The notes under the pieces were generated by a model that worked only from the letters and a program-made list of their open reading frames with translations, did no database searches and was not told the DNA's origin. Shown here piece after piece: positions 23,715 to 28,527 of a stretch of 64,000 nucleotides of DNA. How positions within the stretch are numbered: the first letter of the stretch is position 1; the number at the start of each line of letters is the position of its first letter. Both the position numbers and the translations under genes were made by a program. Source of the stretch: Andreprevotia sp. IGB-42 (GTDB taxonomy: Bacteria > Pseudomonadota > Gammaproteobacteria > Burkholderiales > Chitinibacteraceae); contig NZ_WXTX01000007.1 of the NCBI RefSeq assembly GCF_009848685.1, positions 124,001 to 188,000 of the forward strand. The letters are read 5' to 3'.

Positions 23715-24527
23715 ATGACTTCTAGTACCGAGCTTGCCCCGCAGCGGGTGCGCCATCCGCTGAAATTCCGTTTGCTGCAGGTCAGCCGCGTGCAGCCGCT
23801 GAGCCCGCACCTGGTGCGCATCACGCTGAGCGGGGATGACCTGGCGGATTTCGTTTCCGCCTCGTTCGACGACCATATCAAGGTGTTCTTCCCCGCCGCC
23901 GGCGAGGACAAGCCCAACCTGCCCACCATGGGCGAAGATGGCCCCGTGTACCCGCAAGGCGCAGCTCGCCCGGTAGCGCGTGACTACACGCCGCGCCGCT
24001 TTGATGCAGCAGCAAACGAACTGGATATCGACTTCGTGCTGCATGGCATCGGCCCGGCCACCACCTGGGCGGCACAGGCACAGGTCGGCCAGTACCTTGG
24101 CATCGGCGGGCCGCGTGGTTCGTTCGTGATCCCTGCCGGTTATGACTGGCACCTGCTGATCGGCGACGATAGCGCCTTGCCGGCCATCGCGCGCCGGCTG
24201 GAGCAATTACCCGCCGACAGCCGCGCGCTGGTGATCGTGGAAGTGGCGGATGCCGGCGCGCAAATCCGTCTGGATACTTCAGCCGATGCCAGCGTGCAGT
24301 GGCTGCATCGCAGCGATGCAGGTGGCGCAGCGCAGGTGGTGGATGCCGTGCGCAAGCTGGTACTGCCGGCCGGCACCGGCTACGCATGGGCCGCGGGCGA
24401 GCTGGCTACCGCGCAGGCGGTACGCAAGGTGCTGGTGGATGAACTGGGCATTGCCAAGAACCAGATCCGCGCCGCCAGTTACTGGAAGCAGGGCGCAGTG
24501 GCATCGCACGAAACGCTGGATGATTGA
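23715..24527 (+). CDS. yqjH: Siderophore-interacting FAD protein / NADPH-dependent ferric reductase, YqjH-like
   Basis: This cytoplasmic flavoprotein releases iron from ferric chelates. The 270-aa product has the FAD-binding domain (LVRITLSGDDLADF, YTPRRFD, then DIDFVLHGIGPATTWAAQA, quoted as VLHGIGPATTWA) and GPRGSFVIP. The C-terminal SIP domain has LIGDDSALPAIARRLEQLP and YAWAAGELATAQAVRKVL. It forms an operon with the PadR regulator upstream, so expression probably responds to nickel or iron. It is followed by a hairpin shared with the convergent GNAT gene. Confidence 0.9.
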   Translation: MTSSTELAPQRVRHPLKFRLLQVSRVQPLSPHLVRITLSGDDLADFVSASFDDHIKVFFPAAGEDKPNLPTMGEDGPVYPQGAARPVARDYTPRRFDAAANELDIDFVLHGIGPATTWAAQAQVGQYLGIGGPRGSFVIPAGYDWHLLIGDDSALPAIARRLEQLPADSRALVIVEVADAGAQIRLDTSADASVQWLHRSDAGGAAQVVDAVRKLVLPAGTGYAWAAGELATAQAVRKVLVDELGIAKNQIRAASYWKQGAVASHETLDD

Positions 24528-24556
24528 GGCTGCAGGGCCCGGGCGGTGTTGCAGCC
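24528..24556. terminator. Hairpin between convergent yqjH and GNAT genes
   Basis: A 7-bp stem GGCTGCA/TGCAGCC with a GC-rich 15-base loop begins directly after the yqjH stop. There is no T tract, so termination is only suggested. Confidence 0.4.
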
Positions 24557-24573
24557 CGTACCGGCCGGGTTGA

Positions 24574-25188
24574 TCAGCGCCCGATGGCTGCTGGCGGTTG
24601 GCCGGCCAGCCACTGCGCCTGTGTGATCCGGTACAGGCAGTGCGTACGCAGCGGGCTGCCTTCCGGCACCGCGGGATGCTCGAAGTTGGCGGCATCGCGC
24701 TGCATGCCCAGCTTTTCCATCACGCCTTGCGATGGCAGGTTGGGTAGCGCAGTGAACGCGACGATTTCCGGCAACTGCAGTGTGGCAAAGCCCACCTGCA
24801 GCGCCGCCTGTGCCGCTTCCAGCGCGTAACCCTGGCGCCAGTGCGCGCGTGCCAGCCGCCAGCCCATCTCCACACAGGGATAGCATGGCAACTCCGGCCG
24901 CGGCACATTGAGGCCGACGATGCCGATGAACGCGCCGCTGTCCTTGCGCTCCACCGCCCAGAAGCCCCAGCCGCGCAGCGTGATGAGCCCGGCCATGCGC
25001 TCGGCCATCGCATCGCTGTCCGGGCGCGACATGGGCGCCGGGAAGTAACGCATCACTTCCGCATCGGCATTCAGCGCGGCAAACGGCGCCAGATCATCAG
25101 CGCGCCACTGGCGCAGCCGCAAGCGTGCTGTTTCCGGCGTGATCAGCGGCAGGTGCGGTACCGGCATGGGGAAGACGGGTCGGGTCAT
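24574..25188 (-). CDS. GNAT family N-acetyltransferase (RimJ/RimL type)
   Basis: From the ATG at 25188 the protein has 204 aa. It shows the Acetyltransf_3 pattern: LITPETARLRLRQWRADDLAPF at the start (shortened to TARLRLRQWRADDLAPF), PCVEMGWRLARAHWRQGYALE as motif A region (shortened to EMGWRLARAHWRQGYALE), and NLPSQGVMEKLGMQRD. Such enzymes acetylate ribosomal protein N-termini or small amines; the substrate cannot be assigned. It lies 59 bp downstream of the MazG-like gene on the same strand. Confidence 0.88.
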   Translation of the reverse strand: MTRPVFPMPVPHLPLITPETARLRLRQWRADDLAPFAALNADAEVMRYFPAPMSRPDSDAMAERMAGLITLRGWGFWAVERKDSGAFIGIVGLNVPRPELPCYPCVEMGWRLARAHWRQGYALEAAQAALQVGFATLQLPEIVAFTALPNLPSQGVMEKLGMQRDAANFEHPAVPEGSPLRTHCLYRITQAQWLAGQPPAAIGR

Positions 25189-25247
25189 GGTGGTGGGCTG
25201 GATGTCAGGTGGCCTGCATTCAGGTGGCCGGCAGTCGGATGGCGGGT

Positions 25248-25604
25248 TCAGAGCGCATCGTACTTGCGCGCATGGCCGCGCGCCTGCTCGGCCGGGTACT
25301 TCTGTGCGTTCAGCAGCAGCTTGCGTTCGACCACTGCATTCAGGTCCAGCCCGCTGACATCGGCAATGCGCAGCAGGTAGAGCAGCACATCGGCCACTTC
25401 CTCGCCGAGGCGTTCGGCAAATTGCGGATCTTTTGGCGCGAGAGCTGCCTGCTCGTCGTTCAGCCACTGGAACAATTCCAGCAGCTCGGCCGCTTCCACG
25501 CTCAATGCGCAGGCCAGGTTCTTGGGGCTGTGGAATTGATCCCAGTCACGCTCGGCGGAAAATGCCCGCAGCCGCTGCTGCAGGCTGGCGATATCAATGC
25601 TCAT
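25248..25604 (-). CDS. MazG-like nucleotide pyrophosphohydrolase
   Basis: The 118-aa protein matches the small all-alpha NTP pyrophosphatase family (dCTPase/RS21-C6 type). The metal-binding pattern is visible as EAAELLELFQW followed by EEVADVLLYLLRIAD, and the conserved FHSPKNLACALSVE precedes it. It probably hydrolyses non-canonical or modified dNTPs to monophosphates. The ATG at 25604 overlaps the end of ohrR by 11 bp, so the two are translationally coupled; co-expression with a peroxide regulator would fit sanitation of oxidised nucleotides, which is inference. Confidence 0.9.
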   Translation of the reverse strand: MSIDIASLQQRLRAFSAERDWDQFHSPKNLACALSVEAAELLELFQWLNDEQAALAPKDPQFAERLGEEVADVLLYLLRIADVSGLDLNAVVERKLLLNAQKYPAEQARGHARKYDAL

Positions 25605-26049
25605 GTTTCTTCCTGCTGTCGGTAGGGGCCAGTGCGGCCAGCAATTGCTGCAGTTGCGTGCGCAATGCCGGCAACGCCGCGTGTTCCAGTTGCAACTGGC
25701 ACGCCAGTGCACCCGGTATCGCCTCTGCTTGATTACGCAGCGCAAGTCCTGAGTCGGTGAGCGTGATATCCACGCGGCGCTCATCATCGGCAGCGCGCTG
25801 GCGGCGCAGCAGGCCCTGGCTTTCCATGCGCTTGAGCAACGGGGTAAGCGTACCGCTGTCCAGATAGAGCGCACGTCCCAGATCGCCAACGCTGCGCGGT
25901 GCATGTTCCCACAGCGCCAGCATCACCAGGTATTGCGGGTAGGTGAGGCCCAGTGCACCCAGCAGCGGCCGGTACAGCCGCGTCATGAGGTTGCTGGCCG
26001 CGTAAAGCGGAAAGCACAGTTGCTGGTCAAGATGCAGGGGATCAGTCAT
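25594..26049 (-). CDS. ohrR: Organic peroxide-sensing MarR regulator OhrR
   Basis: OhrR represses ohr until its reactive Cys is oxidised by organic hydroperoxides. The 151-aa product carries that cysteine (Cys12) in the diagnostic DQQLCFPLYAASN motif. The winged helix has LGRALYLDSGTLTPLLKRM and RAADDERRVDITLT. The ATG at 26049 lies 77 bp downstream of the ohr gene on the same strand. The ohr gene itself is frameshifted, so this regulator may control a damaged target plus the MazG-like gene and itself. Confidence 0.92.
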   Translation of the reverse strand: MTDPLHLDQQLCFPLYAASNLMTRLYRPLLGALGLTYPQYLVMLALWEHAPRSVGDLGRALYLDSGTLTPLLKRMESQGLLRRQRAADDERRVDITLTDSGLALRNQAEAIPGALACQLQLEHAALPALRTQLQQLLAALAPTDSRKKHEH

Positions 26050-26126
26050 GGCGATGTCTTCATGCGGGGCTCCGAAGATAGCACGGCCCCGCCAGCCGTT
26101 GAAGGCGGGCAGGGCCCCCATCCGAA

Positions 26127-26574
26127 TCAGGCGGCGACGTGAGCGGCAGCCTGGATGGCTTGCGTGCTCAACTGAACGTCGATATTGCCGCGCGTGGCAT
26201 TCGAGTAGGGGCAAACCCGGTGCGCGGTGGCAACCAGTGCCTCGGCGGCAGCCTGGCTGATGCCGGTAATGCTGATGGCCAGCGCCACGGTCAGCGCAAA
26301 GCCGCCGTTGTCATCGGGGCCGATGCCGACGGTGGCAGCTACCTACGGTCTTGCCGATGGCGGCTTTCTGCAGCCGTGCCACATGCTCCAGCGCGCTCTG
26401 GAAGCAGGCGGCGTAGCCGGCGGCAAACAGTTGTTCCGGATTGGCGCCGGCTTTGCCGTTGCCGCCCAGTGCGCGCGGCATGGCCAGATCGGCAGAGAAG
26501 CTGTCGTCGGTGGTGCGGACATGGCCATTGCGGCCGCCGGTAGCGATGGCTGTGGTGCTGTAGAGCGTGCTCAT
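26127..26574 (-). pseudogene. ohr: Organic hydroperoxide resistance peroxiredoxin Ohr, frameshifted
   Basis: Ohr reduces organic hydroperoxides using two cysteines. The frame from the ATG at 26574 gives a normal N-terminal half: MSTLYSTTAIATGGRNGH, and the first catalytic Cys in GYAACFQSALEHVA. After IGKTV it goes out of frame and stops at 26311. The C-terminal half continues in another frame, with VGIGPDDNGGFALTVALAI, the second Cys in AHRVCPYSNATRGNIDVQL and a stop at 26127. The shift is explained by a tandem CTACCTAC at 26339-26346 (plus strand): removing one CTAC restores a single 147-aa Ohr. It is either a real mutation or a sequencing or assembly error. Confidence 0.88.
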
Positions 26575-26627
26575 GATGGCGATCCTTGCAGGTTGTTGGA
26601 TGACGGTTCCATTCTATGCTTACAAAT

Positions 26628-26643
26628 ATATTGCGCACAATAT
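26628..26643. promoter_or_regulatory. Inverted repeat in the ohr promoter region (possible OhrR box)
   Basis: ATATTG-CGCA-CAATAT is a perfect 6-bp inverted repeat in a very AT-rich stretch, 54 bp upstream of the ohr start. Further outward the arms stay nearly symmetrical (AAATAT/ATAATTT). Known OhrR boxes are AT-rich palindromes of the TACAATT type; TACAAATA occurs at 26621-26628. The 220-bp intergenic region 26575-26794 also serves the divergent solute-binding protein gene. Confidence 0.5.
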
Positions 26644-26794
26644 AATTTACAAAAATATAAATGCGGAGCGACGAGCGCTGCCTGCTGCACTGCAGCGAAA
26701 AAGCCACGCGTTCATCCCGCAATCCGTCAGTTTTTCGGGTGTTTGCGGTGTGACGTGCGTATAGTTTGTAAGACAGCAAACCAAGGAGGTCGCC

Positions 26795-27571
26795 ATGCTG
26801 CGGCTGAAAAAACATCTATGGATCGTGGCCGGTTTGCTGCTGGCCGGCAGTGGCTGGGCTGCCTGCAGCAAGACCATGAGTGTGGTGCCGGAAGACTGGG
26901 CGCCATACAGCTACAAGAATGCGCAGGGGCAGTTTGTCGGGCTCGATCTGGAGCTGATGCAGGCCATCTTCAAGGAGGCGGGCTGCAAGCTGGAATACAA
27001 GACCAATATTCCGCGTATCCGCCGCCATGTGATGCACAAGGACGGCCAGCTGGATGTGCTGTTTGCCGCCAGCGAGACCGAAGAGCGCAAGCAGTTCAGC
27101 TGGTTTACCAAGGCCTACCGGGATGAAGTGACCGGCCTGTTTGCGCGTGGCGATGATCTGGGCCGCTTTGCCAGGGTGCGCGGCTTTGCCGATGTGCTGT
27201 CGGCGCGCGAGGCCATCCTGGCGCCCAATGCCGGCTGGTATGGCAATGACTACGCCAAATCGTTGCCGGACCTGATGGCCGCCGGGCTGGTGCAGCATTT
27301 CGAGAGCTTCGAGCAGGGCTTGCGCATGCTCAAGGCGCAGCGTGCCGATTTGCTGATGGGCGATGTGGGTGCGGTGCTGTACATGTCGCGCCAGACGGTG
27401 AAGCTCAACGTGGCGCAACTGCCGTTCACGCCCAACAGCGATCCGGTGCATCTGATGCTGAGCAAGAAAAGCACCACGGAAGCGGATGTGCAGGCACTGG
27501 ATGCCGCGATTGCACGGCTGGAGAAGCGTGGCGATCTGGCGAAGATACGTGCGCGCTACGGCCTGCGCTGA
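26795..27571 (+). CDS. Periplasmic solute-binding protein family 3 (amino-acid type)
   Basis: The 258-aa product has a signal peptide (MLRLKKHLWIVAGLLLAGSGWAA, cleavage near residue 23; quoted here as LWIVAGLLLAGSGWAA). The SBP_bac_3 fold follows: SVVPEDWAPYSYKNAQGQ, GLDLELMQAIFKEAGCKLEY and DLLMGDVGAVLYM. No permease or ATPase gene is nearby. Such orphan binding proteins in this group often act as environmental sensors or pair with remote ABC systems. The ribosome binding site AGGAGG precedes the ATG. Confidence 0.85.
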   Translation: MLRLKKHLWIVAGLLLAGSGWAACSKTMSVVPEDWAPYSYKNAQGQFVGLDLELMQAIFKEAGCKLEYKTNIPRIRRHVMHKDGQLDVLFAASETEERKQFSWFTKAYRDEVTGLFARGDDLGRFARVRGFADVLSAREAILAPNAGWYGNDYAKSLPDLMAAGLVQHFESFEQGLRMLKAQRADLLMGDVGAVLYMSRQTVKLNVAQLPFTPNSDPVHLMLSKKSTTEADVQALDAAIARLEKRGDLAKIRARYGLR

Positions 27572-27649
27572 GCGGGTTTGATCTGCCGGGCGTGATCGAC
27601 CGTTGAAACCGGTCTGGCCGGGTGCATAGCTATTGCAAGCTGTCGGGGC

Positions 27650-27673
27650 GCCGCTTGTCGTTGCCCAAGCGGC
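27650..27673. terminator. Inverted repeat between convergent solute-binding protein and rlmJ genes
   Basis: An 8-bp stem GCCGCTTG/CAAGCGGC with an 8-base loop ends just before the rlmJ stop. There is no T tract on either side. Confidence 0.35.
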
Positions 27674-27681
27674 ATCAGGCC

Positions 27682-28527
27682 TCAACCGGCGTGCTGTTCC
27701 AGTAGGAAGCGCGCGCCGCGGTCCAGCCCCAATGCATCCACCAGCACCGGCAGCACCGTTTGCAAGGTGGCGTGCAGCGTATAGGGCGGGTTGAGGATGA
27801 ACATGCCACTGCCGTGCATGCCGAAACCATCGGCAGACGGGCCCTGCACGAACAGCTCCGCGCGCAGCCATGACTTGGCCGGCAAGCCCTTGAGCTTTCC
27901 CGGCAATGCCTTGGCCTCTTCGCGCTGCAGGCACGGGTACCAGATGGCATAGGTGCCGCCGGCAAAGCGCGCCAGGCTGTCTTCCAGTGCCTTGATCACG
28001 CGCTGGTAATCGTGTTTTTCTTCATACGGCGGGTCGATCAGCGTCAGGCCACGGCGTGGCGCTGGCGGCAGTACCGATTTCAGCCCGTTGAAGCCATCTG
28101 CCGTCTGCACCACCGCCTGGCGGCGCAGGTGATCGACGTTCTCCAGCAGCAGTTTGGCATCGCTCGGGTGCAGCTCGAACAGGCGCAGCTTGTCGTCTGC
28201 GCGCATCACGGCCTGCGCCACGAGTGGCGAGCCGGGGTAGTGCTTGAGCTGCCCATCGGGATTGAAGCCGCGGATCACGTCCACGTACCTTGCCAGCGGT
28301 GCGGGCAGGTCATCGCGCTGCCACAACCGCGCAATGCCGGTTTCAAACTCGGCATTCTTGGTGGCGTAGCCTTCGGTCAGGCTGTATGCGCCGGCGCCGG
28401 CGTGGCTATCGATATACCAGTACGGTTTGTCTTTCTGGTTGAGATAGCCCAGCAGCTCGACCACCAGGAAGTGCTTGAGTACATCGGCATGGTTGCCGGC
28501 ATGGAAGGCGTGGCGGTAGCTGAGCAT
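27682..28527 (-). CDS. rlmJ: 23S rRNA (adenine-2030-N6)-methyltransferase RlmJ
   Basis: RlmJ methylates A2030 of 23S rRNA. From the ATG at 28527 the protein has 281 aa, matching the family, and begins with the diagnostic MLSYRHAFHAGNHADVLKH. The SAM region shows YIDSHAGAGAYSL, and the catalytic motif is LIDPPYEEKHDY (DPPY). The C-terminus has GSGMFILNPPY. The upstream extension of the frame adds 16 unrelated residues and was rejected. It is a single gene after the fpr terminator. Confidence 0.95.
   Translation of the reverse strand: MLSYRHAFHAGNHADVLKHFLVVELLGYLNQKDKPYWYIDSHAGAGAYSLTEGYATKNAEFETGIARLWQRDDLPAPLARYVDVIRGFNPDGQLKHYPGSPLVAQAVMRADDKLRLFELHPSDAKLLLENVDHLRRQAVVQTADGFNGLKSVLPPAPRRGLTLIDPPYEEKHDYQRVIKALEDSLARFAGGTYAIWYPCLQREEAKALPGKLKGLPAKSWLRAELFVQGPSADGFGMHGSGMFILNPPYTLHATLQTVLPVLVDALGLDRGARFLLEQHAG

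Follow-up and report, generated by a model that had tools for sequence, protein, structure and literature searches.

A probable one-base frameshift in the OhrR-linked ohr gene of Andreprevotia sp. IGB-42

The OhrR-controlled organic hydroperoxide reductase gene (ohr) of Andreprevotia sp. IGB-42 is probably a fresh null allele. The gene lies on the minus strand at 26127–26574 of the window (the whole 64,000-nucleotide stretch analysed here), next to an intact ohrR. An insertion of net one base within 26339–26346 would have shifted its reading frame. We regard the lesion as an ordinary one: a recent frameshift in a well-known gene, or possibly an isolated error in the sequence, and not a switch.

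Two halves of Ohr in different frames

Both halves of Ohr are conserved and lie in different frames, as originally predicted; translation and a profile match to each half bear this out. From the ATG at 26574, translation runs through 78 Ohr residues to the frame-change site, continues for nine unrelated residues and ends at a stop codon at 26311–26313. This readable 5′ part (26311–26574, minus strand) encodes an 87-residue product with the peroxidatic Cys57, and matches positions 1–70 of the 134 in TIGR03561, the Ohr subfamily profile of the OsmC/Ohr peroxiredoxins (E 2e-27). The 3′ part (26127–26338, minus strand) is in the +1 frame, matches positions 88–133 of the same profile (E 3e-17) and ends at the stop codon at 26129–26127. 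It carries the resolving cysteine, within VCPYSNATRGN; at the switch there is no plausible start codon from which it could be translated separately. Syntenic intact orthologs are present in both congeners (G001 and G002). The two reactive cysteines, 193 nt apart, are in different frames and do not share one open reading frame; judged by its sequence, the locus is a broken gene of the Ohr family, without the status of a working member.

The break is also visible to a method that is blind to homology. A frame-switch decoder based on coding potential, and trained on the organism's own long open reading frames, placed the switch at 26342 in one run and 26336 in the other, with no start codon near. 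All other decoder switches in the 64-kb window appear to be gene junctions. That the halves are two separate genes meeting at a junction was considered and ruled out by the lack of a nearby start codon. A search of 24000–28000 gave no Rfam match to an RNA element.

One nucleotide more than 64 codons separates the two cysteines. In a set of 55 Ohr-type sequences, 34 have a spacing of 64 codons, 14 of 65, 6 of 66 and 1 of 63; the six closest orthologs, which come from the same genus (G001, G002) and the same family (G039–G042), all show 64. In an oriented DNA alignment of the seven ohr genes, a single 1-nt gap interrupts the coding region common to them, at 26339–26346; the other gap there is an in-frame codon gap in G002. 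The frame-change site (26339–26346, minus strand; CTACCTAC on the plus strand) thus has a net surplus of one nucleotide relative to the six orthologs.

A young lesion or a sequence error

The broken gene has not decayed. Over 138 comparable codons, the private changes in the window ohr are 3 nonsynonymous to 14 synonymous, and those in the intact sister genes are 7:18 (G001) and 7:15 (G002). Of 75 residues on which all six relatives agree, the window Ohr differs at 3, which is comparable to the same measure in three controls (5/80 in G001, 7/82 in G002 and 7/82 in G041). A crude mixture model allows no more than about a tenth of the branch to have been free of constraint. Upstream of ohr, an imperfect palindrome over a −10-like hexamer (26624–26647), predicted to be the OhrR operator, is conserved in relatives. 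Together, the 3:14 ratio and this palindrome indicate that ohr was kept under selection until very recently. The hallmarks of an old, decaying pseudogene are missing, as there is neither relaxed selection nor a second indel in ohr; a null allele here would have to be very young. The expectation of a very recent event or a sequencing error beside an intact ohrR is supported by the same lack of relaxed selection and of a second lesion, and by the intact operator.

Absence of decay fits a fresh mutation and an artefact equally. The frameshift is called from one draft assembly of one strain, in 52 contigs, and there is a real if lesser chance that it reflects an error in sequencing or assembly, or a mutation confined to the culture that was sequenced, with ohr intact in the species. 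The draft state of the assembly, the good preservation of ohr outside the break, the intact ohrR and operator, and the fact that every other Ohr sequence examined is intact all favour such an error. Against it, the frame-change site is not a homopolymer, the 64-kb window has no other break, and such breaks are no commoner than in a relative assembled as a single contig. In 764 kb of this genome, the decoder reported five frameshift-like breaks that do not look like gene junctions, although at least one of them (C1:475147) may be a junction after all, since a start codon sits at the switch. The corresponding counts are four for 400 kb of the single-contig G041 and one for 400 kb of G001. By this measure the assembly is not unusually broken, and we rejected general noise as the cause. 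On balance we consider it quite likely that the lesion is real.

As a candidate null, ohr shows no substantive difference from the frameshift pseudogenes and null alleles of draft bacterial genomes, which likewise have a single indel in an otherwise conserved gene and number a few per Mb. Should the lesion be real, the strain would be a naturally occurring ohr null that keeps an intact OhrR and has two further Ohr proteins, which makes it a convenient case for asking whether unlinked paralogs can stand in for the regulated Ohr. If not, the break matters to annotation only.

Two probable frameshifts were seen elsewhere in this genome, both on the minus strand. One, at L095:12691 (G000:C1:32691), leaves the gene parts in different frames; we take this gene to be FMN-dependent azoreductase-like. 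The other, at L089:465 (G000:C50:60465), is in a gene that presumably encodes a methyl-accepting chemotaxis-type sensor.

The short repeat at the frame-change site

The repeat CTACCTAC does lie at 26339–26346, where the original prediction had placed it and had read it as a 4-bp tandem duplication. The alignment and the cysteine spacing, which both give a net change of one nucleotide, do not bear out a duplication as the event. Deleting one CTAC reopens the frame, to 147 residues, as had been proposed, but the resulting protein is one residue short of the six orthologs, all of which have a residue there. To judge from these comparisons, a 4-bp duplication is probably the wrong event.

A true 4-bp duplication could be kept by supposing that one codon had earlier been lost, in frame, from the same loop. 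We think this improbable. The repeat is perfect, and a 63-residue spacing does exist in one of the 55 Ohr sequences; however, two events are required where one is enough, and the shorter loop is absent from all six closest orthologs. Nor is the repeat itself telling: the window contains 305 perfect two-copy 4-mers, where mononucleotide shuffles average 286, and at this chance-level frequency the repeat at the frame-change site needs no special cause. Half of the tandem looks ancestral, because three relatives already carry AGGT at this spot (G040, G041 and G042), extended to AGGTAG in G040. In the one-base insertion that we favour, the added base probably completed an earlier near-repeat to a perfect 4+4 repeat, either through slipped misalignment or by chance. 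No paper on templated single-base insertions at imperfect repeats turned up in a literature search. The case also shows that a short, perfect tandem repeat may sit at a frameshift without being the mutation that caused it.

The suggestion of phase-variable slippage fares worse. A switch driven by tetranucleotide slippage would account for a frame disruption that sits at a tandem repeat in an otherwise conserved gene, but the repeat has only two units, of a kind found 305 times in 64 kb, Tandem Repeats Finder reports no array at the site, the relatives have no tract there, and the net change is +1 rather than +4. There is no tract above chance at ohr whose units would explain an on/off change. 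Tetranucleotide phase-variable loci such as the Haemophilus LOS genes (PMC3938747) share with ohr a tandem tetranucleotide at the frame change; ohr differs from them in its two units, its one-base net difference and the lack of a tract in relatives. We give a phase switch almost no credence.

Equally far-fetched is programmed +1 frameshifting to full-length Ohr, which would suit the two conserved halves and the +1 direction, but the junction has no recognised slippery site or stop codon, no ortholog has such a shift, and a shift at the later stop would swap out about ten conserved residues.

The regulator and two other Ohr genes

The neighbouring ohrR (25594–26049, minus strand) is intact, as had been claimed. 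Its translation is a 2-Cys-type MarR-family repressor of 151 residues, with the N-terminal sensing cysteine in LCFPLYA and a second cysteine near the C terminus. It matches PF01047 for the MarR fold and NF052638 (E 2e-50, 170.5 bits, which is below the curated cut-off of 200). It is the only close OhrR in the genome; three further matches are remote MarR relatives. On the minus strand, ohr is followed by ohrR and then by a small protein gene (25248–25604), in the same order as in G002; the product of this gene, which had no NCBIfam match, is presumably MazG-like.

Translation of ohr as it stands yields an 87-residue fragment that lacks both the resolving cysteine and the C-terminal half of the fold. 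Ohr needs its two cysteines, as shown for C. glutamicum (PMC4486171), so the fragment should be inactive. With OhrR and the putative operator still in place, the locus should nevertheless respond to organic peroxides, without a working Ohr. The expression of ohrR itself may be reduced by polarity, because ribosomes would stop about 180 nt short of the usual end of ohr and no intrinsic terminator was found between the two genes.

The suggested search for a second ohr found two others, both intact, at C49:249270–249674 and C45:269576–269980 (161 and 156 bits to TIGR03561, cut-off 88.85). Neither has an OhrR-like neighbour, because no OhrR/MarR match lies on contig C49 or C45. Both congeners have the OhrR-linked ohr only and lack these two paralogs. 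In a tree, the C49 Ohr groups with Ohr of G012–G014 and G016 (support 99/96); the C45 Ohr is divergent and its placement uncertain. These two intact proteins may cover the loss of ohr, which may therefore be tolerated. Such backup is not assured, because in Chromobacterium violaceum loss of ohrA alone causes hypersensitivity despite the presence of ohrB, the transcript of which was undetected in any condition tested (PMC3469484).

The ohrA–ohrR locus of C. violaceum resembles the present one in its adjacent, head-to-tail 2-Cys OhrR and Ohr genes, its inverted-repeat operator at ohr and its unlinked Ohr paralog (PMC3469484). In C. violaceum, however, ohrA is unbroken and follows ohrR in the bicistronic mRNA; here a frameshifted ohr precedes ohrR, and the unlinked paralogs are two. 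It is conceivable, though rather doubtful, that organic-peroxide defence has been rewired: the OhrR-induced Ohr would have been discarded after two divergent, OhrR-unlinked paralogs took over, leaving OhrR with itself or with other targets.

A GH18-like chitinase gene adjoins the C45 copy, hinting that the organism may be a chitin-degrading relative of Chromobacterium. The two unlinked paralogs, at L081:5268–5684 and L082:5571–5999 on the minus strand, have long branches.
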